Source: Kiloniellaceae bacterium (lineage in GTDB: Bacteria > Pseudomonadota > Alphaproteobacteria > Kiloniellales > J153). Taken from it: a stretch of DNA of 64,000 bases. Both the position numbers and the translations under genes were made by a program. Positions 52,918 through 63,284 of this stretch are shown piece by piece (position 1 is the first letter of the stretch; every line of letters begins with the position of its first letter). The stretch spans positions 310,001 to 374,000 of the forward strand of contig JAJFGO010000021.1 of NCBI GenBank assembly GCA_021776095.1. Reading direction: 5' to 3'. The notes under the pieces were generated by a model. It saw nothing but the letters and a program-made list of their open reading frames with translations. It was not told where the DNA came from and ran no database searches.

Positions 52918-53045
52918 TGCCGCCATTGACCAAACCACGACTGGTGTTCGCGTCAAGCTTCAACGGAAATCGCGCGCCGTTGCCGCGCACCGGGTCTTAG
53001 GTTCTAATCCGCCCGACAAAAAGATTTGCCGCAGGGAACCGCCGC

Positions 53046-53534
53046 ATGACCGACGACAACGCGCCGTCCAGGACCTTTCCAGTGTCCTGGGATCAATTGC
53101 ACCGCGACGCCAAGGCGCTGGCCTGGCGCTTGATCGAGGCCGGCCCTTGGTGCGGCATTGTCGCCATCACGCGCGGCGGCTTGGTGCCGGCGGCCATCGT
53201 CGCGCGCGAATTGGAAATCCGCCTGATCGATACCTTCTGCGTCGCTACTTACGACGACCAAGAGATCGGCGACGTGCGCATCCTCAAGGGTGTCGAGGGC
53301 AACGGCTACGGTTGGCTGATTATCGACGACCTGGTCGATACGGGCCAGACCGCCAAGGTGGTTCTGGAACAGTTGCCCAAAGCGCACTTGGCAACCGTAT
53401 ATGCGAAACCGGCCGGGCGGCCGCTGGTCAAAACCTTCATTACCGAAGTCAGCCAGGACACCTGGATCCTATTCCCCTGGGATACCGAACTTCGGTCGGT
53501 ACCGCCCCTGGCCCGCGGCATCGCCGGGCGCTAG
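53046..53534 (+). CDS. gpt: Xanthine/guanine phosphoribosyltransferase
   Basis: A 162-residue type I phosphoribosyltransferase that converts xanthine or guanine and PRPP to the nucleotide. The PRPP loop is [16 protein letters not shown] near 96-111, and [36 protein letters not shown] and [17 protein letters not shown] are typical of Gpt. Complete. Its TAG stop lies inside the palindrome at 53531-53567. Confidence 0.92.
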
Positions 53535-53567
53535 AGCATATTCCGATCATATCGAACCATGCTCTAG
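53531..53567. repeat. CTAGAGCAT palindrome between gpt and panB
   Basis: CTAGAGCAT (53531-53539) is the reverse complement of ATGCTCTAG (53559-53567), with CGAT/ATCG (53544-53547 and 53551-53554) inside. It overlaps the gpt stop and lies between convergent genes. Similar AGAGCAT palindromes are common in Alphaproteobacteria. Confidence 0.65.
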
Positions 53568-53582
53568 CCTCGACGTCGGCGG

Positions 53583-54397
53583 TTACGTGAGTTTGAGGTC
53601 CGCGGCCTTGGCCGCGGCAAAGCAATGCCGATCCTCCGGGAAGCGCCGCGCCGTCACATCCTCGGCGTAGCGCGCCACGGCAAGCGAGATATCCCGGTTC
53701 ATCTCGGCGTAGCGCTTGACGAATTTCGGAACAATCTCTCCAGATAGGCCGACCAGATCTTCGGTCACCAGGATCTGTCCGTCGCAGGCTGGGGAGGCGC
53801 CGATGCCGATGGTTGGAATCGGCACCCGCTCGGTAACCCGGCGCGCCACCGGCTCCGTGGTGGCTTCGATCACCACGGCGAAAGCCCGGCCTGCGCGATC
53901 GCGTCGGCGTCCCGCAAGATCCCTTCGGCCGACGCTTCGCTGCGCCCCTGGGTCCGAAATCCGCCCAGGGCCATAACCGATTGCGGCGTAAGTCCGATGT
54001 GCCCGAGAACCGGCACCCCGCGCGAGACGAGAAAGGCCACGGTTTCGGCCATGGCGAGGCCGCCTTCGAGTTTGACGCCCGCGCACCCGGTTTCGGCCAT
54101 GAGCCGGGCCGCGTTGGCGAAGGCTTGCTGCAGCGATTCCTGGTAGCTGCCAAAGGGTATATCGACGATCACGCAGGCCCGCTTCGCCCCGCGCGCACAG
54201 CCTAGCCGTGCGCCACCAATCATGTCGAGCGTCACGGCCAGGGTCGTGTCCATGCCATACAAGACCATGCCCAGGGAATCGCCCACTAACAAAAGATCGA
54301 CATGGGGATCCAATGCCCGGGCCATGGGGGCCGTGTAGGCGGTCAGGCAGACAAGCGGCGCGGCACCCTTGCGCTGCCCCATATCCTGGATGGACAA
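53583..54397 (-). CDS. panB: 3-methyl-2-oxobutanoate hydroxymethyltransferase, frameshifted
   Basis: PanB makes ketopantoate for pantothenate and CoA synthesis. The N-terminal part is read from ATG 54397 ([50 protein letters not shown]). After AIAQAG near 53885 the frame hits a stop at 53870. The expected remainder ([46 protein letters not shown]) lies in another frame and stops at 53583. One G missing from the GGGC run near 53884-53887 explains it. PanB is normally needed, so a sequencing error is likely; the join would give about 270 residues, normal length. Confidence 0.88.
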
Positions 54398-54479
54398 GGA
54401 CTTGTCGGGACGGTCAAGACTCAGCTTCTTGCTCCCAGCGGTGCGCCGACGCCGATCCCTTCGGCATCAGGCTCCGTGG

Positions 54480-54511
54480 TTTATAGGATTGATTTGCTGC
54501 GCTGCAATATA
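54480..54511 (-). promoter_or_regulatory. panB promoter region with the shared TGC-rich motif
   Basis: On the minus strand TATATTGCAGCGCAGCA (54495-54511) matches the motif upstream of the mutase gene at all but one base. A second promoter reading is TTGCAG-N16-TATAAA (54507 to 54480), about 85-110 bp before the panB start. Both share the same bases, so a regulator bound to the TGC motif would affect initiation. Confidence 0.5.
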
Positions 54512-54527
54512 GCGTGCGTCGGCGCGG

Positions 54528-55283
54528 TCAGAAGCCGCCCGCTAGTTCCTCCAAGGCACGCCGATCCGAGATCTCGACCTTGCCGTTGCTCTGCAAGGCA
54601 ATGACGCCGCTTTGTTTCAGTTGGGTGAAGGTGCGGCTTACGGTTTCGGTGGTCAGGCCCAGAAAATCGCCGATGTCGTTTCGGCTCATGGGCACAGAGA
54701 CAGGGTTGTCCTTCTGGCCACGCTGAACCGCCCGGCGCGACAACATAAGCAAAAAAGACGCCACCTTCTCGCGCGCCGTCTTGCGGCCGAGCAAAAGCAT
54801 CTGTTCCTGGGCCACGGCCAGTTCGTGGCTGGCCATGCTTAGCAAGCGATGCTCCATCTTGGGATAGAGTTCCAGCAGGGGCTCAAGCTTTTTCCGGGGG
54901 AAGCGGCACAGGGTCGAGTACGTCACGGCCTCGGCGCTATAGGCGTAGGTCCGGTCGTTTGCGAGGCCGAGGAAATCGCCCGGAAACAAGAAACCGGTCA
55001 TCTGCCGCCGCCCGTCCGGCAACAGCTTATAGATCTTGATTGCCCCGGCGGTAACATTGAAAACGTGCTTGGCCGGCTCGGCCTCGTCGAACAGGGGCTC
55101 CCCCGGGCCCAGCTCGACCAAGGTGACGATGCCCGCCATGTCGGCGACCTCCTGGTCGTCCAAGGCCGCGCACAGGGTCAAATGGCGGACGCTACAGGCG
55201 CTGCAGGGCGAGGCCGGGCCCCCGGGCCGCGATCTCGCACCCGGCAGATTGTCTGTCATCTTCTTGATCTCAAAGGACGCCAT
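54528..55283 (-). CDS. fnr: Fnr/FixK-type Crp family transcription regulator with four cysteines
   Basis: About 251 residues. The N-terminal cysteine cluster PCSACSVRHLTLCAAL plus Cys in STLCRFPRKK gives the four ligands expected for a [4Fe-4S] oxygen sensor. The cyclic-nucleotide-binding-like fold follows, then the HTH SRNDIGDFLGLTTETVSRTFTQLKQSGVI near the C terminus. ATG 55283 is used, with ATG 55259 as alternative. It is divergent from the gene at 55479, and an FNR-type box lies between them, suggesting autoregulation and control of anaerobic genes. Confidence 0.88.
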   Translation of the reverse strand: MASFEIKKMTDNLPGARSRPGGPASPCSACSVRHLTLCAALDDQEVADMAGIVTLVELGPGEPLFDEAEPAKHVFNVTAGAIKIYKLLPDGRRQMTGFLFPGDFLGLANDRTYAYSAEAVTYSTLCRFPRKKLEPLLELYPKMEHRLLSMASHELAVAQEQMLLLGRKTAREKVASFLLMLSRRAVQRGQKDNPVSVPMSRNDIGDFLGLTTETVSRTFTQLKQSGVIALQSNGKVEISDRRALEELAGGF

Positions 55284-55430
55284 CTCGGCCTGCAGGTCAT
55301 TCAAGAGCCAGCTAATATTTTTACACGGCCACGCATATGAATCCAGCCTCTCGCTGGCCACGTTAACCATGGCGCAAAAAAAGCCGGAGCCGGAACAGGT
55401 CCCGGGCAGCCTAGCGCGCTGCGCCTGCCA

Positions 55431-55444
55431 TTGATGTAGGTCAA
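55431..55444. promoter_or_regulatory. FNR/FixK box
   Basis: TTGATGTAGGTCAA matches TTGAT-N4-ATCAA with one mismatch. It lies between the divergent fnr gene and the gene at 55479, about 150 bp from the fnr start and 35 bp from the other start. Confidence 0.75.
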
Positions 55445-55478
55445 GGACGGTCCCGGCGCCAGCCCCCAGCATACCGCC

Positions 55479-56024
55479 TTGGCCATACAAATCGCCTATG
55501 GACTCTTCGTGCGAGAACTGATCACAAAACCGCTATCCGGCAAGCTAGTCGACCAGGCCTTCCCTCTTGTGCAGGCCGCCTTGCCAAGTGTCGATTTGGA
55601 ACAATGGCGCCACTTCGCGGGGCAACTGATCTGCCCTGAGGCACCCGACAACACCGGTATCCTAAGTGTGCTGACGGAGCAGGGCTATATCGCCGGCTTG
55701 AGTATCTATCGCATCGAGCCGAGCCTTGCCCACGGGCCCGTGCTGATCGCCGACCATTTCATGGCCCTCGACCTTTTCAATCGCGCGGCCGTCGTCAACG
55801 CCCTGGCAGATTTCCTGGAGGATCTAGCCCGGCGGCGCGGCTGCACCGCTTTGCACACACATATCCCGGAAAAAGACGGGGTATGGCAGGGTCCGGCCGA
55901 TGGTCTGGTCTCGATCTTGCGCGATCGCGGCCACGCCATCGAATCCCTGCGTTTGTGCAAGCAGTTCGGCAACGCCGCGCAACTTACGGTCGGGACCCCT
56001 CGCGATCGGGCAAGATTAGCGTAA
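55479..56024 (+). CDS. Unknown protein, possibly N-acetyltransferase-like
   Basis: About 181 residues with a TTG start; GTG at 55509 (VRELITKPL) is an alternative. The hydrophobic strand and helix pattern (ILSVLTEQGYIAGLSIYRIEPSL, VVNALADFLEDLARRRGCTALHTHIPE, GLVSILRDRGHAIESLRLCKQF) is compatible with a GNAT-like fold but no A-motif is convincing. It is divergent from fnr with an FNR box 35 bp upstream. The 3' end overlaps the histidine kinase gene by 41 bp on the other strand. Confidence 0.65.
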   Translation: MAIQIAYGLFVRELITKPLSGKLVDQAFPLVQAALPSVDLEQWRHFAGQLICPEAPDNTGILSVLTEQGYIAGLSIYRIEPSLAHGPVLIADHFMALDLFNRAAVVNALADFLEDLARRRGCTALHTHIPEKDGVWQGPADGLVSILRDRGHAIESLRLCKQFGNAAQLTVGTPRDRARLA

Positions 56025-57390
56025 ATCGGGTGCCTTCGGCGGTCGAAGCCGCCAAGCGCAAATCACCGCCATGGGCGCGCATCAATTCGCGCGCGATCGC
56101 CAGACCCAATCCTGTACCGCCCGGCCGCGCGGCTCCGGCAAAGGGCTTGAACAGATTTTCCCGCGCCTTGGTCGCCAAGCCCGGACCGTTGTCGGCCACT
56201 TCGATGAGCACCTGATCGCCGTCCCGCCGGGCGCTCACCTCAACCCGCGCCGCGCCGGCATGGATTGAATTCAGGCTGAGGTTGCTCAGAACCCGGTGCA
56301 GTTGCTCCTGATCCGCCTCGATCTCGAAGGCGCCGTCGATCAGGCAGCCGAGCGCCGGGGATCCGTTGACCTTTTCCGGCAGATTTTCGCGCACTGTGGC
56401 GACCAGTTCGGTTAAATCGAAGCGCGTCGGTTCGATCCTGGGCGCGCCGTGACGGGTATAATCGAGGGTCTGGGCGCAGAGGTCGACGGCGCGGTCTATA
56501 GCGCCCATCAGGGTTGGGGTCACGCGCTGAACCTCTGGGTCGCCGCTGCCCATCAGCCGGTCCGAGACCAGGCGCGCGGTGGCCAAGATATTTCGCAGAT
56601 CGTGATTGATCTTGGTCACGGCGGTGCCAAGCGCGGCCAAACGCGCGCGTTGCTGCAGGGCATCGCGCAAGCCGCGCTGCATGTTGGCCAATTCGCGCCG
56701 GGCAACGCCGATTTCGTCGCTACGCCCGGTCGGCTGGGCGATCCTCGACGCATCCTCGGGATTATCGCGGAATCGCGCCATGTTCGCGGTCAGGCGGCGC
56801 ATGGGCCGCACCATGAGCAAGTGAAGGCTGAGATAGACCAACGCCGCGGTGAACAGCGAAATGACGAAAGACAAGCCCAGGATCCGGTTGCCATAACCGA
56901 TCATGAGGGCGCGCAGTTCGGCCTCGTCGAGAACGATCTCCACGACCACCTCGGGATTCTTCGGCGAGGCCCCAACCACCCGCAGCACGCGGCGACCGTC
57001 GCCCATCAAGGTTCCCAGCGCGCTTCCGATCAGGCCGAAAAAATGGGTGTCGCGCAGATCGACGCTGGCATCCAACCGGTCGGGCTTGGCGCTCATCAGC
57101 ATCAGCTTGCCTGCGCCCGGCTTGGTCATAGCCACCATATAGGCGCCGACATGAGTCAGCAGCTCGCGCTCCAATTCTTCGCCGACCATATTGTCGGGAG
57201 TCGCCTCGAGGGCCAGGATCGCCAGGTGCGCATCGGCCAAACGTTCTTCCAGATAGGTCAGCCGAAAACGCCCGATGGACGGCGCGAAAATCAAGACCTC
57301 CGCCAACATCACGAAGGCGATCGTCAAGAGCAACAGCTTGGCCGACAGGCTCTTGGCCAGCGGCGGCAGTCTTAAATTGGTCACCGTCAT
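55984..57390 (-). CDS. Orphan sensor histidine kinase
   Basis: A 468-residue membrane kinase. The first helix (LSAKLLLLTIAFVMLAEVLIFAP) and a second (LGLSFVISLFTAALVYLSLHLL) bracket a periplasmic sensor domain of about 140 residues. A HAMP follows (RRLTANMARFRDNPED), then the H-box LGTAVTKINHDLRNILATARL, where His precedes DLRN, an N-box NLSLNSIHAGA and G-boxes ADNGPGL and GGTGLGLAIAREL. No response regulator is adjacent. Ligand unknown. Confidence 0.9.
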   Translation of the reverse strand: MTVTNLRLPPLAKSLSAKLLLLTIAFVMLAEVLIFAPSIGRFRLTYLEERLADAHLAILALEATPDNMVGEELERELLTHVGAYMVAMTKPGAGKLMLMSAKPDRLDASVDLRDTHFFGLIGSALGTLMGDGRRVLRVVGASPKNPEVVVEIVLDEAELRALMIGYGNRILGLSFVISLFTAALVYLSLHLLMVRPMRRLTANMARFRDNPEDASRIAQPTGRSDEIGVARRELANMQRGLRDALQQRARLAALGTAVTKINHDLRNILATARLVSDRLMGSGDPEVQRVTPTLMGAIDRAVDLCAQTLDYTRHGAPRIEPTRFDLTELVATVRENLPEKVNGSPALGCLIDGAFEIEADQEQLHRVLSNLSLNSIHAGAARVEVSARRDGDQVLIEVADNGPGLATKARENLFKPFAGAARPGGTGLGLAIARELMRAHGGDLRLAASTAEGTRFTLILPDREGSRP

Positions 57391-57512
57391 GGCGCAACTA
57401 TACCATGAAGGGAACCGTACATAAATCTAGTGGAATGGCGCAGCCGAAAATCGCGCTTCAGACTGGATACCGGTCCGAGACTGGGGCGTATCGCGGCACG
57501 CTGGGTGGCGCG

Positions 57513-57554
57513 CCGCTACCGTCCAAGGGAGAGGGAGGGTTTGGACGGTAGCGG
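57513..57554. repeat. Perfect 14-bp hairpin downstream of the CNPC-repeat gene
   Basis: CCGCTACCGTCCAA (57513-57526) pairs perfectly with TTGGACGGTAGCGG (57541-57554) over a 14-base G-rich loop. It lies about 43 bp after the CNPC gene stop and 120 bp from the kinase start. On the minus strand no T-run follows, so it may be an attenuating or mRNA-stabilising hairpin rather than a standard terminator. Confidence 0.6.
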
Positions 57555-57596
57555 ACGCGCCGGCACCTCAGCAATTAAAGGCCAGCCATTTTTGAA

Positions 57597-57863
57597 TTAG
57601 TTGGCCTTCGGCTTGCAGGGGTTGCAGGCTTTCGCTGCACAGGGATTGCACTTCGCCGCACAGGGATTGCACTTGGCCGCCGCGCAGGGGTTGCATTTCG
57701 CCGCCGCACAGGGATTGCACTTGGCCGCGCAAGGGTTGCACTTCGCCGCACAGGCGGCAATCTGCACCGTGGTATCCGCCGCCTTCGCAGCAGCGCCGGG
57801 AAGGACCATGGCACCGCTCGCCAGGGTCGCGACGCTGAGCGCCAGAACTGTTTTCTTGATCAT
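57597..57863 (-). CDS. Secreted Cys-rich protein with CNPC tandem repeats
   Basis: An 88-residue protein. A signal peptide (MIKKTVLALSVATLASGAMVLPG, cleavage near AAAKA) is followed by six copies of CNPCA[AK]-type units, each with Cys-Asn-Pro-Cys, spaced by AAK or AAAK; 13 cysteines in about 50 mature residues. The simplest reading is a metal-binding (Cu, Zn or similar) or thiol-buffering secreted protein. No modifying enzyme (DUF692/MNIO-type) is adjacent. The repeats are also direct DNA repeats of 18-24 bp at 57613-57755. Confidence 0.85.
   Translation of the reverse strand: MIKKTVLALSVATLASGAMVLPGAAAKAADTTVQIAACAAKCNPCAAKCNPCAAAKCNPCAAAKCNPCAAKCNPCAAKACNPCKPKAN
57613..57755. repeat. Tandem DNA repeats encoding CNPC units
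   Basis: Units of about 18-24 bp such as GCACTTGGCCGC and CAGGGATTGCACTT recur six times in phase with the protein repeats. They are coding repeats, prone to length variation by slippage or recombination, not a CRISPR array. Confidence 0.8.
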
Positions 57864-58127
57864 ATAAGTCGCCTCCTAGAGTGATGCCTTGCCGGCGGTT
57901 TCGCCGGCCACGTTCCTCGGGTCGAAGCCGCAAGTCAGTGCACGTTGCACTTGCGGGCCGGATCGGAGATATCGTGTTCCGTAATAATGGCAACTCGGCC
58001 CAGAATTCACGACTCACGTCTGGGAGTTTTGGTTCACAAGTCCGTGAAAGTTATCACGAATTTGTCCCCGCGCCGGATCGCCGCCGGGCGCTTCCGGGGC
58101 CCTAGGCGCGACGCGACGCCGCGCGGC

Positions 58128-59552
58128 TCAACCCAACCGGGCAAGCAGTCGGACCAGCCATTTGGTCCGCGCGCTGAATAGCTTAGGCAAATAATAGCTG
58201 CCCGCGGCCCGTTTGCTGGCCTCGCCCAATGTCGGGTAAGGCGCGATCATCTGGGCCAGGGCTCCGACCTTCAAGCCCTGGGAAATCGCCAGGACCCAGG
58301 GTTGGATCAACTCGCCGGCCTGGCTGCCGACTATGGAGGCACCCAGGATTTTGCCGCCGGGCGTCGTGATCGCCTTGACCAGCCCGCTGCCGTGCCGTTC
58401 CGCCTGGGCCCGGTCGTTTTCGGCGAACGGCCAGCGCAGGATACGCACCTCACCGTGGGCCTGGCGCGCCGCCTCCTCGGTCAGGCCGACCTGGGCCAGC
58501 TCCGGCGCCGTGTAGGTAACCCAGGGCAGAGCCCGGATATCGACCTTGGCGGGCAAGCGGAACAGCACGTTCTTAATGACGATCCCGGCATGGTATCCGG
58601 CCATGTGGGTGAAATGCGGGCCGCCCGCCGCATCGCCCGCCCCGTAGACCCGGGGATTGCTGGTGCGCAGGCGGCGGTCGACCACCAGGCCGCCCCGGTC
58701 ACGGTCGACGCCCGCCGCTTCCAGGCCCAGATCGTCGAGCGCCGGCGCACGCCCGGCGGCGAGCAGCAGGGTCGAGCCGGCGATGGTTAGATTTTCGCCA
58801 TCGCGCTCGATCCGGACCGCGACCTCCGCCCCGGACCGCTCCACGGCGACCACCTTGGCGCCCTCGTGCAACTCGATCCCGTCGGCCCGCAGGCGATTGC
58901 GCAGGACCGCGACCAGCTCCGGATCGTCCTTGGGCAGAATGCCGCCCATCTCGACGATGCTAACCCGCGCGCCGAGCAGGCGAAACGCCTGTCCCAGCTC
59001 GCAACCGATCGGGCCGCCGCCGATCACGATCAGATGGGCCGGCAGTTGGGTCAGGCCGAACACCGTCTCGTTGGTCAGGAAATCGACCCCATCGAGCCCG
59101 GGAATGGGCGGCACCATGGGGCGCGACCCGGTCGCCACCACAAAGCGCCGGGCGCGGACCCGGACCCCGCCGGCCTCGACCTCCCGGCTGTTGACGAAGC
59201 GCGCGGCGTGGCGCAGCACGGTGACGCCCAGGCCCTCGAAACGCTCGACCGAATCCATCGGGGCAATGGCCTCGATCACGCCGCGCACGTGGTCGTGGAC
59301 ACCGCGAAAATCGACCCGTGGCGCCTCGAAATGAACCCCCAGGGCCGCGGTATGGCGGTGGGTTGCCGCCGCCTTGGCCGCGACCAGCAGGGCCTTGGAG
59401 GGGATGCAGCCGTAATTGAGGCAGTCGCCGCCCATCTCTGCCTTTTCGATCAGAACCGTCTCGGCGCCCATTTGCGAGGCGCCGGCGGCAATCGAAAGGC
59501 CGGCCGAACCCGCGCCCAGCACGCAGATATCGGGCGTCAGCATCCCCGTCAT
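58128..59552 (-). CDS. Mercuric-reductase/dihydrolipoamide-dehydrogenase-like flavoprotein
   Basis: A 474-residue pyridine nucleotide-disulfide oxidoreductase. The FAD motif CVLGAGSAGLSIAAGA opens it, the redox-active disulfide is in GGDCLNYGCIPSKAL, and the NADPH site is VIGGGPIGCELGQAF. Near the C terminus the usual active-site His-Glu (HPTxxE) reads YPTLGE, with Tyr in place of His, as in a subgroup of this family. ATG 59552 is used; ATG 59543 is possible. It follows the TVP38 gene by 52 bp in the same operon. Substrate unknown. Confidence 0.9.
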   Translation of the reverse strand: MTGMLTPDICVLGAGSAGLSIAAGASQMGAETVLIEKAEMGGDCLNYGCIPSKALLVAAKAAATHRHTAALGVHFEAPRVDFRGVHDHVRGVIEAIAPMDSVERFEGLGVTVLRHAARFVNSREVEAGGVRVRARRFVVATGSRPMVPPIPGLDGVDFLTNETVFGLTQLPAHLIVIGGGPIGCELGQAFRLLGARVSIVEMGGILPKDDPELVAVLRNRLRADGIELHEGAKVVAVERSGAEVAVRIERDGENLTIAGSTLLLAAGRAPALDDLGLEAAGVDRDRGGLVVDRRLRTSNPRVYGAGDAAGGPHFTHMAGYHAGIVIKNVLFRLPAKVDIRALPWVTYTAPELAQVGLTEEAARQAHGEVRILRWPFAENDRAQAERHGSGLVKAITTPGGKILGASIVGSQAGELIQPWVLAISQGLKVGALAQMIAPYPTLGEASKRAAGSYYLPKLFSARTKWLVRLLARLG

Positions 59553-59604
59553 GACATTGGGCCCCCTCCCAGGATGCGCCGGGTTTCGGCGTATTTCGGA
59601 CCGG

Positions 59605-60345
59605 TCAGCCGGCGCCGGCCCGGCGCGCCTTGATCTTCTTATAAACCACCGGCAGCACAGCCAAAATGGCCATCCCAACGATCGGGATCAGGATCTCGGG
59701 CGTAAAAATGATCCGCAGGTCGGGACTGCCCCCGGCATCGAGGATCGCGCCCAGGCCGTTGCCCAGACTGGCATAAACAAAGGTGCCGGGGATAATCCCG
59801 ATAAAGGTGCCGATCACATAGACCCGCAAGGACACCCCCAGAAATGCCGGGACCAGATTTACCAGCCAGAACGGGAACAGGGGGATGAGGCGCAGGACCA
59901 GCAAGTAATTGAGGGCATTTTCGCGAAACCCCTCCTCCATGCGGCGCAGGCCCGGGCCTGCCTTGGCCCGCAGGAAATCGCCCAGTGCCGTGCGCGCCGC
60001 CAGAAACACCGCCGTCGCCCCGATGGTGGCGCCGATGACCACACAAAAGGTCGCCGGCACCGTGCTGAACAAGAACCCGGCGGCAATGGTCAGGATCGCC
60101 CCGCCCGGGATGGAGAAGGCGACGACCAGGGCATAGACCCCGACGAAAACCGCGCCGGTCAACCAGGGTTCGCTCTCGACCTGGGCGCTCAGCCAGTGGC
60201 GATGCTCGCGCAGGGCATCCAGGCCGACGTAGCGATCCAGGCCCAGTACGAAAAACAAGATCAGACCGGCGATCAGCACCGCCAAAGGCGCCAGGCGGCC
60301 GAGCAGCCGCCGCTTTCCGGCTTTTGGGCCGCTCGAATTCGTCAT
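59605..60345 (-). CDS. TVP38/TMEM64 family membrane protein (VTT/DedA)
   Basis: A 246-residue protein with about six helices. The VTT core is visible: AFSIPGGAILTIAAGFLFSTVPATFCVVIGATIGATAVFLAARTALGDFL, then RLIPLFPFWLVNLVPAFLGVSLRVYVIGTFIGIIPGTFVYASLG. Proteins of this family act in lipid scrambling or undecaprenyl-phosphate recycling. Its pairing with the disulfide oxidoreductase is one I recall, sometimes as a fusion. ATG 60345 is used. Confidence 0.92.
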   Translation of the reverse strand: MTNSSGPKAGKRRLLGRLAPLAVLIAGLILFFVLGLDRYVGLDALREHRHWLSAQVESEPWLTGAVFVGVYALVVAFSIPGGAILTIAAGFLFSTVPATFCVVIGATIGATAVFLAARTALGDFLRAKAGPGLRRMEEGFRENALNYLLVLRLIPLFPFWLVNLVPAFLGVSLRVYVIGTFIGIIPGTFVYASLGNGLGAILDAGGSPDLRIIFTPEILIPIVGMAILAVLPVVYKKIKARRAGAG

Positions 60346-60542
60346 CCCCACACCCGTTCGTCCCCTCGGCACCTCGGCCCCCCCGATACGCCGGCCCGCC
60401 TTTTTAATATCGCAAGCTAACACGGACCAGTAACCATGGCGTGAAGCCCTCCGGTTGCCATGGGTTTGCCGCTCCCCGGCCCGCCACACGGCCCCTATCG
60501 GGAGAAGCCGGCACCGACAGGCCTGGCAAGGGCCCGGTAGCG

Positions 60543-60571
60543 TTGACAGAGCGGGTGGCGGCTCGTATACA
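60543..60571 (+). promoter_or_regulatory. Near-consensus sigma-70 promoter for rpmH
   Basis: TTGACA (60543-60548), 17-bp spacer, TATACA (60566-60571), 41 bp before the GTG start. The -35 is perfect and the spacing ideal, fitting a ribosomal protein operon. Confidence 0.85.
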
Positions 60572-60612
60572 GCGAGCCGAATTCAATCCTTCCAGACACC
60601 GGAGCAACTGCC

Positions 60613-60747
60613 GTGAAGCGCACCTATCAACCAAGTGTGCTGGTCCGCAAGCGCCGCCACGGGTTTCGTGCCCGTATGGCGACCGCGGGCGGCCGCAACA
60701 TCGTCGCGCGCCGGCGCGCCAAGGGTCGCAAGCGCCTCTCCGCGTAA
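60613..60747 (+). CDS. rpmH: 50S ribosomal protein L34
   Basis: A 44-residue ribosomal protein with a GTG start: [21 protein letters not shown], then [22 protein letters not shown], a diagnostic basic sequence. Preceded by the promoter at 60543-60571. It is followed by rnpA in the universal rpmH-rnpA order. Confidence 0.97.
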
Positions 60748-60753
60748 GCCGCG

Positions 60754-61185
60754 ATGATGCCCACCATCGGGCGATTAAAGACGCGGCCCGACTTCCTGAA
60801 GGTGGCCGCCGCGCGCGCGAAGTGGGTGACCCCGGGCTTGATCTTGCAGGCCCGCCGGCGCCCGGCGCCGGAGCCGACCATCCAACGCGACCGGCCGGTC
60901 CTTGAGAGCGGCGATCCGGAAATCCGGATCGGATTCACGGTCAGCCGAAAGGTTGGCAACGCGGTTCGGCGCAACCGGGCGCGGCGGCGGCTTCGGGCCG
61001 TGGCCCAGGAGATCATGCCGGGCTGCGGGCGCGCGGGGACCGACTATGTCCTGATCGGGCGCCGCGAGACGCTCGAGCGGCCCTATACGGCCTTGCGCGA
61101 CGACCTGTGCGCGGCGCTCAAACGGCTGGAGCGGGACCGAGGCGCCGGCCGGGCGCCGCGGGTAGGAAGGCAGAGACGCCCATGA
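60754..61185 (+). CDS. rnpA: Ribonuclease P protein component
   Basis: A 143-residue protein subunit of RNase P, which matures tRNA 5' ends. The RNR-like signature appears as GFTVSRKVGNAVRRNRARRRLRAVAQEI, with LKTRPDFLKVAAAR at the start. ATG 60754 or 60757. It is 6 bp after rpmH and overlaps yidD by 4 bp. Confidence 0.93.
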   Translation: MMPTIGRLKTRPDFLKVAAARAKWVTPGLILQARRRPAPEPTIQRDRPVLESGDPEIRIGFTVSRKVGNAVRRNRARRRLRAVAQEIMPGCGRAGTDYVLIGRRETLERPYTALRDDLCAALKRLERDRGAGRAPRVGRQRRP

Positions 61186-61505: not shown

Positions 61506-63284
61506 ATGGAACAAAAAAACCTAATCCTGGCGATTGCCCTCTCGGTCGCCATTCTGATCGGCTTTCAAGTTTTCGTCGGCGATCAGCAGGTCGCCCCGCC
61601 CGGCGGCGAGGCCGTGACGCAGAGTGCCGGCGGCACAGCCGTACCGACCGCCCCGCCCGGCGGCGTGCCCGCCACTGGTGTACCGGGCGGGCCCAGCGTC
61701 CCGACCGCCGGCCAGGCGCAAAGCATTCCGGCCGCGTCCGCCGAAGTGACCCGCGCCGAAGCGATTAAGCGGGCGCCGCGGGTCCGCATCGAAACCCCGA
61801 CGCTGAGCGGCTCAATCTCTCTGTTGGGTGGCCGGATCGATGACCTGACCTTGACCCAATACCGGGAAACCATCGAGCCCGACAGTCCGGAGATCGTCCT
61901 GTTATCGCCGCAGGATTCGGCCAATCCGTATTTCGCGGACTTCGGCTGGACCGACGCGGGCAGCGGCACGGTCCTGCCCAACGCAGCCACCCTCTGGCAG
62001 TCCGACGGCCATGTCTTGTCGCCGACCCAGCCCGTGACCTTGTCATGGAACAACGGCGCCGGTCTGCGCTTCGAGACCTTCTACGAGATCGACGAGAACT
62101 ATTTCTTCACGGTCACCCAGCGCGTCTACAACGATTCCGACGCCGCGGTCACCCTGCTGCCCTATGGCCTGATCTCGCGCACCGGCACGCCCGATATCCT
62201 GGGCTTCTATATTCTGCACGAAGGGCTGCTCGGCGTTTTCGACGAGACCCTGAAGGAAATCGACTACTCCGATTTGAGCGACGACGGCCCGGTCCAGGTG
62301 GAGACGACCGGCGGCTGGCTGGGCATCACCGACAAGTACTGGCTGGTCGCCCTGGTCCCCGATCAGGAAAAGGCCATCAATGCGCGCTTTCTGCACGACG
62401 GGCGCAGCGGCGCCGACAAGTATCAGACCGATTTCCTTTACGGCGCCGCCAACTTGCAACCCGGCGCCGCGACTGAGATCAAAAGCAATCTTTTCGCCGG
62501 CGCAAAGAAGGTTTTGCTGCTGGACGATTACGAAACCGAGAACGGCATCGCCCGATTCGACTTGGCGGTCGACTTCGGCTGGTTTTATTTCCTGACCAAG
62601 CCCCTGTTCTACGCCCTGCATTACATTACGGACCTGATCGGCAATTTCGGCGTGGCGATCCTGATTCTCACCGTCGGCGTCAAGCTCGTGTTCTTTCCCC
62701 TGGCCAACAAGTCTTACGCGGCCATGGCCAAGATGAAGAAACTGCAGCCGGAGATGATCAAACTGAAGGAACGCTTCGGCGACGACAAGCAGCGCCTGAA
62801 CCAGGAGATGATGGCGCTCTACAAGAAAGAAGGCGCCAATCCCATGGCGGGCTGCCTACCGATCGTGGTTCAGATTCCGGTGTTCTTCGCACTTTACAAG
62901 GTGATGTTCGTCACCATCGAAATGCGCCACGCGCCGTTCTTCGGCTGGATCCAGGACCTCTCCGCCCAGGACCCGACCTCGATCCTGAACGGCTTCGGAC
63001 TGCTGCCCTGGGGGGTGCCGCAGTTGGGCGCGCTGGACCCGATCAACCTAGGCGTCTGGCCGATCCTGATGGGCCTGACCATGTTCCTGCAGCAGCGCTT
63101 GAATCCGCAGCCGCCGGACCCGATCCAGGCCAAGATTTTCCTGTTCATGCCGATCATCTTCACGTTCCTGCTGTCACAGTTCCCGGCCGGCCTGGTGATT
63201 TACTGGACCTGGAACAACACGCTTTCCATCGCCCAGCAGGCCGTGATCATGCGGCGCCACGGCGTACGCATAGGCCGGACGTGA
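61506..63284 (+). CDS. yidC: Membrane protein insertase YidC
   Basis: A 592-residue insertase. An N-terminal anchor (LILAIALSVAILIGFQVFVG) is followed by a low-complexity linker (rich in Ala, Pro, Gly), a periplasmic beta domain, and five-helix core with NFGVAILILTVGVKLVFFPLANKSYAAMAKMKKLQPEMIKLKERFGDD and GCLPIVVQIPVFFALYKVM. Complete length for a Gram-negative type. The last codon overlaps the next start as GTGA. Confidence 0.97.
   Translation: MEQKNLILAIALSVAILIGFQVFVGDQQVAPPGGEAVTQSAGGTAVPTAPPGGVPATGVPGGPSVPTAGQAQSIPAASAEVTRAEAIKRAPRVRIETPTLSGSISLLGGRIDDLTLTQYRETIEPDSPEIVLLSPQDSANPYFADFGWTDAGSGTVLPNAATLWQSDGHVLSPTQPVTLSWNNGAGLRFETFYEIDENYFFTVTQRVYNDSDAAVTLLPYGLISRTGTPDILGFYILHEGLLGVFDETLKEIDYSDLSDDGPVQVETTGGWLGITDKYWLVALVPDQEKAINARFLHDGRSGADKYQTDFLYGAANLQPGAATEIKSNLFAGAKKVLLLDDYETENGIARFDLAVDFGWFYFLTKPLFYALHYITDLIGNFGVAILILTVGVKLVFFPLANKSYAAMAKMKKLQPEMIKLKERFGDDKQRLNQEMMALYKKEGANPMAGCLPIVVQIPVFFALYKVMFVTIEMRHAPFFGWIQDLSAQDPTSILNGFGLLPWGVPQLGALDPINLGVWPILMGLTMFLQQRLNPQPPDPIQAKIFLFMPIIFTFLLSQFPAGLVIYWTWNNTLSIAQQAVIMRRHGVRIGRT

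Follow-up and report, generated by a model that had tools for sequence, protein, structure and literature searches.

Bufferins, as described in a survey of MNIO (DUF692) enzymes, are exported, cysteine-rich RiPPs that chelate copper (PMC12452194). The same survey reports, as preliminary results, that the bufferin signal peptide forms part of the recognition sequence, and it records a rare fusion of Buf1, cytochrome c and an FGE-sulfatase domain (PMC12452194). Cytochrome P460 proteins are defined by a heme-lysine cross-link (PMC11928373), and the letters KCNPC also occur in work on the metallothioneins of a plant (PMC11151532).

We analyzed a 64,000-nucleotide stretch of a Kiloniellaceae genome (the window), in which the initial annotation had read a secreted protein with six tandem CNPC units, an extreme cysteine content and a mature part of about 55 residues. 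The open reading frame was found where it had been placed, on the minus strand (Table 1). Its translation reads MIKKTVLALSVATLASGAMVLPGAAAKA / ADTTVQIAACAAKCNPC... and continues through six CNPC units that start at residues 42, 49, 57, 65, 72 and 80 of the 88-residue protein. A Sec-type signal was recognized by eye (KK, a hydrophobic stretch and an AxA site), as is looked for in a bufferin-type precursor, so that secretion is predicted as before, and the likely cleavage site, also placed by eye, lies between AKA and ADTTVQ. Cleavage there would leave 60 residues, close to the earlier estimate but somewhat longer, with 13 cysteines (21.7%) and a predicted pI of 8.9; the extreme cysteine content is thus borne out.

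Because the DNA of the array is a GC-rich 21/45-bp tandem repeat and a mirrored 88-residue open reading frame with a TTG start exists on the plus strand, the gene might be thought a low-complexity artefact or a chance frame. We take the plus-strand frame to be a shadow of the CNPC repeat. Shuffling the letters of the mature protein 20,000 times gave a mean of 0.04 CNPC units and a maximum of 2, and across the six units codon positions 1 and 2 were invariant and position 3 showed three changes, variation at the third position alone implying that the protein is kept and not only the DNA repeat. Together with the AGGAGG ribosome-binding site and the strong stem-loop that follows the stop codon, these results led us to regard the gene as real. 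Frame, signal and ribosome-binding site are moreover conserved across families; loss of the frame in relatives, which would have counted against the original reading, was not what we found, the repeats staying in frame. We give an artefactual origin next to no credence.

The short CNPC gene is probably transcribed as a separate unit. An upstream block that is near-identical in four genomes of the genus is presumed from its sequence to be a promoter or operator; its 29-base core, allowing up to 6 mismatches, was absent from loci outside the genus among those then compared. A 32-base pattern of the block had a single site in its own genome (≤3 mismatches), so no shared regulon is shown and the block was rejected as a regulon mark. 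The 121-nt stretch holding the stem-loop gave a z score of −5.9, and since no U run follows, the element is mRNA stabilizing or terminator-like at most. By consensus, neither a sigma-70-like promoter nor a U-run terminator was found at the gene, and positions 53000 to 61000 held no Rfam element at gathering level. Elsewhere in the window, a 57-bp tandem repeat of about two copies (61592-61709) lies in the early part of an open reading frame (61506-63284) that looks YidC-like by eye.

Table 1. Features in and around the short CNPC gene (positions in the window)
Feature	Position	Strand	Remarks
Orphan sensor histidine kinase	55984..57390	minus	HAMP (weak), HisKA, HATPase_c
Stem-loop after stop codon	57513..57554	minus	14-bp perfect stem, 14-nt loop
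Short CNPC-array protein gene	57597..57863	minus	88 residues including signal; stop codon 57597-57599
Cys array, six CNPC units	57615..57752	minus	residues C38-C83
Sec-type signal region, 28 residues	57780..57863	minus	by eye
Ribosome-binding site AGGAGG	57872..57877	minus	8 nt before ATG; kept in genus
Upstream block CGTGATAACTTTCACGGACTTGTGAACCAAAA	58027..58058	minus	near-identical in four genomes of genus; presumed promoter/operator
FAD pyridine nucleotide-disulfide oxidoreductase	58128..59678	minus	MerA/lipoamide-dehydrogenase-like, CLNYGC site; translation probably starts farther in
VTT-domain membrane protein, PF09335	59605..60489	minus	Pfam

AlphaFold2 modeling of the short protein from 14 rows gave a mean pLDDT of 42 and no fold, and the chain is accordingly predicted to be disordered. 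No Pfam or NCBIfam model reached its cut-off on the scanned short array proteins or on the array part of the P460 fusion described below. Homologues with a variable number of repeats, which the initial annotation had anticipated, were readily found: short array proteins in 24 named loci and the window span 65 to 100 residues with 8 to 16 cysteines. Short CNPC matches occurred in 30 of 58 related genomes and in at least 18 of 289 genomes of a class-wide sample, where the list of carriers is incomplete (G223 and G283 turned up later) and its counts are therefore lower bounds. Only four matches came from a phylum-wide sample of 398 genomes, namely the window's own genome, one known carrier and two weak ones belonging to a single genus outside the class; divergent short arrays escape this kind of search, and some genomes are incomplete. 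The motif itself drifts, CGAC replacing CNPC in three proteins of the window's type (L152, L153 and L161) and in three P460 fusions (L227, L231 and L248), and a single NPC replacing it in L213 and L234. Cysteine density stays through these changes, and Asn-Pro is not kept. Among the named kinase relatives (the best 80 of 273), the window is nearest to the Kiloniellaceae metagenome genomes OFTM28, OFTM138 and OFTM267.

Array proteins came in three kinds, of which the window gene represents type A. Type B, some 340 to 430 residues long in most rows, consists of a signal, an array, a CxVPRL-type linker, a second array and a cytochrome P460 domain. This sister protein is a member of the cytochrome P460 superfamily: PF16694 matched it at 28.7 bits (cut-off, 27; 35.6 bits for the plain P460 paralogue), a single CxxCH stood near the C terminus in all 15 rows, and a model with a mean pLDDT of 82 matched, in Foldseek, five P460/c′-beta chains (7ead, 6hiu, 9hrk and 7s5o; E, 2.6e-4 to 9.8e-4) and, at an E of 0.01, 2je2. 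A sequence search of the PDB with the P460 domain returned nothing relevant and no P460 protein. A lysine, K102 of A3, was invariant in the 15 array-P460 rows and is at most a candidate for the heme-crosslinking residue, as no alignment to Lys70/Lys78 was obtained. The short and P460-fused array genes are adjacent in L158, L163 and L167. One P460 protein (L165:4903-5862) carries cysteine arrays ahead of its P460 domain and also within it, as an insertion. Type C, a second short array protein, was seen in four genomes, with a kinase, a PF00174 molybdopterin oxidoreductase (which we take to be of the MsrP type) and, in three of the four, an OmpR-type regulator as neighbors. In L031 to L046 (e.g., L031:1-6888), which come from the window's order, the P460, array-P460 and Sel1 genes run divergently to a suf set with an Rrf2 regulator; on this suf side, relatives of SufB turned up in 11 and those of Rrf2 in 12 further compared loci.

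In the window, the gene order is VTT protein, MerA-like disulfide reductase, CNPC gene and orphan kinase, next to which no response regulator lies. The reductase scored below the NCBIfam cut-offs of both MerA (366 versus 454 bits) and RclA (203 versus 740) and, to judge from its sequence, shares only a superfamily with them. The initial annotation had pointed to the kinase and the disulfide oxidoreductase as neighbors, and frequent neighbors they are: among 48 other loci, about half of them fetched around the short gene, relatives of the kinase occurred in 28, of the reductase in 20 and of the VTT protein in 22 (L029 and L050 represent a single site, which lowers the kinase and reductase counts by one each). 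However, an array gene (filter, at least 4 PC motifs) lay upstream in only 27 of the named kinase loci (the best 80 of 273) and not in the other 53, of which L092 and L109 have less than 250 bp upstream and are too short to judge; when the 53 were rescanned for any cysteine-rich upstream frame, the frames were judged to be noise only. The operon without the CNPC gene occurs in Kiloniella, Parvibaculum and others. In itself, a VTT–MerA-like reductase–kinase operon is found in many Alphaproteobacteria. Outside the order, 13 short-array loci had the kinase nearby in 9 cases, an array-P460 gene in 2 and neither in 2, and in L155 and L157 the kinase was kept and reductase and VTT were not seen. The pattern at these two loci and at kinase loci with and without an array implies that the kinase is a common neighbor without being an obligatory one, and its value as proof of function is weakened accordingly. 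On a kinase tree of 72 loci, 36 of them with an array gene, array presence required 8 changes, at least 4 of them forced by starred branches, and was clustered relative to 500 shuffles; the tree came from a quick search, contains several long branches and leaves out 18 of the 80 loci, including one positive (L081).

The initial annotation had also treated the CNPC gene as a single gene, which proved too narrow, since the array-P460 gene, a DUF6969 gene and a PF03781 gene go with it. The DUF6969 gene (PF22308; E, 4e-82 to 1e-83) and the PF03781 gene recur near array genes of other families. Among the related genomes, DUF6969 was present in all 30 CNPC carriers and in 15 of 28 others (P = 1.2e-5), and an orthologue of the PF03781 gene was present in 25 of 30 and 7 of 28 (P = 1.4e-5), with the caveat that these P values ignore phylogeny and that the sampled genomes are related, not independent. 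Counted by genus, the association was weaker but kept, at 15 of 15 versus 7 of 11 for DUF6969 (P = 0.022) and 12 of 15 versus 2 of 11 for PF03781 (P = 0.0043). In the class sample, 17 of 18 CNPC carriers (all but G064) and 45 of 271 others had DUF6969. Part of the statistics includes four genomes that joined the CNPC set post hoc (G018, G048, G052 and G053), on the basis of arrays read in L249, L225 and L224 and, for G052, of frame length only; both versions were computed. The seven CNPC-negative genomes with PF03781 comprise three with another array subtype, one more that frame length assigns to this group, and three in which no array was found (G009, G016 and G023). A genus of eight genomes (g8) gave no match to CNPC, DUF6969 or PF03781, and the two other sampled genera of its family have the system.

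The partners are also linked physically. PF03781 adjoins DUF6969 in 26 of the 32 PF03781-positive relatives, including the window's genome, and, of the 25 class-sample genomes with a P460 match as well as DUF6969, 17 have the best such match no more than 7 kb from DUF6969 (counting G084, whose P460 array content was left unread). In L167, DUF6969 comes first, followed by PF03781, short CNPC and array-P460, and in L160, which otherwise has the window's own arrangement, DUF6969 sits between the type-A gene and the window-type kinase. The window's genome has all four genes at three separate loci: the DUF6969-PF03781 pair lies at about 113.7 to 115.4 kb of C36, the contig of the window, some 195 kb before the window starts, and the array-P460 gene lies on contig C113. 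Two DUF2336 proteins adjoin the pair there (L222:3333-5817), and DUF2336 relatives were matched in 14 loci numbered L151 or higher, some of which represent a single place more than once. Among 40 DUF6969 loci, of which 20 were chosen for a known nearby partner or a strong match and 20 mostly came from CNPC-negative genomes, an array gene was near in 17 (3 of these recognized only on later reading), L214 was doubtful, and 22 showed none (L204, L207 to L212, L215 to L223 and L237 to L242, the window genome's own copy being L222); 18 of the 22 belong to the set picked mostly for having no CNPC match or for strong second-clade matches. The 20 loci mostly from CNPC-negative genomes gave 3 with an array gene nearby, 1 doubtful and 16 with none. 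A strict tie of DUF6969 to arrays was thus rejected, given these 22 loci and the 15 noncarriers that have the gene. A second DUF6969 clade (L237, L238, L239, L240 and L242) is 63 to 67% identical to the L158 protein; no PF03781 or Cys-array matches were found near its loci, and the neighbors in L238 look phage-like by eye.

The PF03781 partner of the window's genome matched its domain at an E of 9.9e-44 and, from an N-terminal signal placed by eye, would be exported; DUF6969, with no obvious signal, would be cytoplasmic. The PF03781 partners form a tight subfamily with the motif GGSWDDxGCGxCR, its GCGxC present in all 20 distinct rows. ToxD, CalU17, OvsA, PvdO and FGE are the nearest solved structures, EgtB also being among the relatives with structures, and the scores of the partner fell well short of the NCBIfam cut-offs of SenA, EgtB, PvdO and OvoA. 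Taken together, these results suggest a dispersed, multigene alphaproteobacterial system made up of the short CNPC protein, the array-P460 protein, DUF6969 and an exported PF03781 protein with GCGxC, which probably deals, beyond the inner membrane, with reactive metals or with sulfur chemistry. Several results speak against a strictly coupled system: the wider distribution of DUF6969, the five CNPC carriers without PF03781, the class-sample carrier without DUF6969 (G064), the short-gene carriers without a P460 match and the scatter of the four genes over three loci in the window's genome.

How might such a system work? The reading we favor, with a confidence somewhat short of even, is that the array is an exported, disordered thiol sink for soft metals or oxidants, served by the P460-array protein, DUF6969 and the PF03781 protein. 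We infer from the sequences that the chain would leave through Sec and that the helpers would act on it: its dense periplasmic thiols would bind soft metal ions of the copper type and/or take up oxidants, the P460-array protein would couple the same kind of array to heme, and the PF03781 protein and DUF6969 would keep, load or oxidize the array cysteines. We favor the sink for three reasons. Cysteine density is kept in the arrays, in contrast to proline and asparagine; the chain is predicted to be disordered; and some neighbors have to do with thiols, sulfur or metals, namely suf genes, PF00174, MerT and an RND pump (both in L162), a PF04143 sulfur transporter (L162 and L224) and a signal-bearing rhodanese beside DUF6969 (L220 and L223). 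Among the annotated neighborhoods, metal-resistance genes occurred in L162 only, whose peptide is a divergent relative. A CxxC array exported through Sec may be oxidized to disulfides, which would stop metal binding. The closest rival of the thiol sink is a modified precursor, RiPP-like and independent of MNIO, in which the signal would be the recognition sequence and PF03781 and/or DUF6969 would modify the array cysteines (by oxidation or C-S chemistry) either ahead of export or after it, to give a product that would chelate metal or pair with the P460 protein. We consider such a precursor possible, though on balance unlikely. It draws on the co-occurrence and clustering of the array with two enzyme-like families, and on the signal region, whose mean pairwise identity in four genomes of the genus is 83%, versus 24% for the signals of plain P460 proteins of the same genomes (starts of the latter placed by eye). 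Some of the structurally characterized relatives of the partner, which include CalU17, OvsA, EgtB, PvdO and true FGE, act on sulfur or carry out oxidations, and the C-x-P of CNPC presumably resembles the CxPxR site of FGE. The role in recognition that preliminary results are reported to give the bufferin signal points the same way (PMC12452194). However, proline is dispensable, and arrays with CGAC share the same partners, which makes FGE-like recognition of CxPxR unlikely and led us to disfavor it; 5 of the 30 CNPC carriers lack PF03781. The GCGxC of the partner, moreover, may differ from the copper-binding active-site Cys pair of FGE with its canonical spacing.

The initial annotation had offered metal buffering or a precursor for modification, and both remain the leading readings; what has fallen is the version of the latter in which DUF692-type enzymes would be found near relatives. 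A bufferin proper would share with the CNPC protein a Sec signal and abundant cysteines (PMC12452194), but MNIO is absent from 16 of the 30 carriers, its presence shows no association (Fisher P = 0.61), and in the other 14 carriers the gene is either on a different contig or separated from the array gene by more than 700 kb. We therefore rejected a dependence on MNIO, and we regard a bufferin in the strict sense as very improbable. Bufferin models such as Buf1 (DUF2282) gave no Pfam or NCBIfam match over cut-off, and Pfam scans of selected neighbors revealed no DUF2063-type partner. A single MNIO gene is present in the window's genome, on a contig different from that of the window (L170, G000:C35:102654-103445). 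A structural role, in which disulfides between short and P460-fused arrays would build a scaffold, in the periplasm or at the surface, and so bring the heme protein into clusters, would suit the repeat common to both proteins, their adjacent genes in three loci, the array within the P460 domain of L165 and the predicted disorder; we nonetheless think it doubtful, as no anchor or assembly motif was seen and, in the class sample, 4 of the 15 genomes with the short gene gave no P460 match. Also improbable, in our estimate, is a periplasmic carrier of sulfane sulfur or persulfide: the suf operon, the PF04143 transporter, the rhodanese and the MsrP-type neighbors would fit it, but each occurs in few lineages and none is general. 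We put forward, quite tentatively, a new MNIO-free class of ribosomally made, Sec-exported, posttranslationally processed Cys-array peptides, in which DUF6969 and PF03781 would act on free and P460-grafted CNPC, CGAC and NPC arrays to give a heme-coupled envelope polymer that handles metals or sulfur.

If linkage reflects function, the system offers a first lead on DUF6969 and explains an unannotated family of Cys arrays. It also provides a test of whether exported cysteine-rich chelators need MNIO enzymes. Cytochrome P460 proteins with long Cys arrays are described here, and none was found in the literature searched; nor did that search, outside of which most subscription journals lay, find a published account of a CNPC-array system or of DUF6969.

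Compared with known systems, the CNPC protein shares dense cysteines suited to soft metals with metallothioneins and with periplasmic copper-storage proteins such as Csp1; in contrast to them, it has an export signal together with a regular, unfolded array. No Pfam metallothionein model matched it, the only hit being PF03940 (MSSP) at an E of 0.97, below cut-off. The sister protein has in common with cytochromes P460 and c′-beta the PF16694 match, the fold matches and the CxxCH, perhaps also the cross-linking lysine if its invariant lysine corresponds to it, and adds to them two Cys arrays and a CxVPRL-type linker before the heme domain. With SUMF1/FGE, EgtB/OvoA and PvdO, the partner shares the PF03781 family, within which it forms a GCGxC subfamily of its own. 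The bufferins (Buf1/DUF2282, Buf2 and EGKCG/oxazolin) are like the CNPC protein exported and cysteine rich, with a Sec signal instead of a leader, and their rare fusion with cytochrome c and PF03781 resembles the partners found here (PMC12452194). Unlike them, the CNPC system has no linked MNIO and has repeated CNPC, CGAC or NPC arrays and P460 and DUF6969 partners. By analogy, then, bufferins appear to be the nearest precedent, the likeness being one of working and not of membership.
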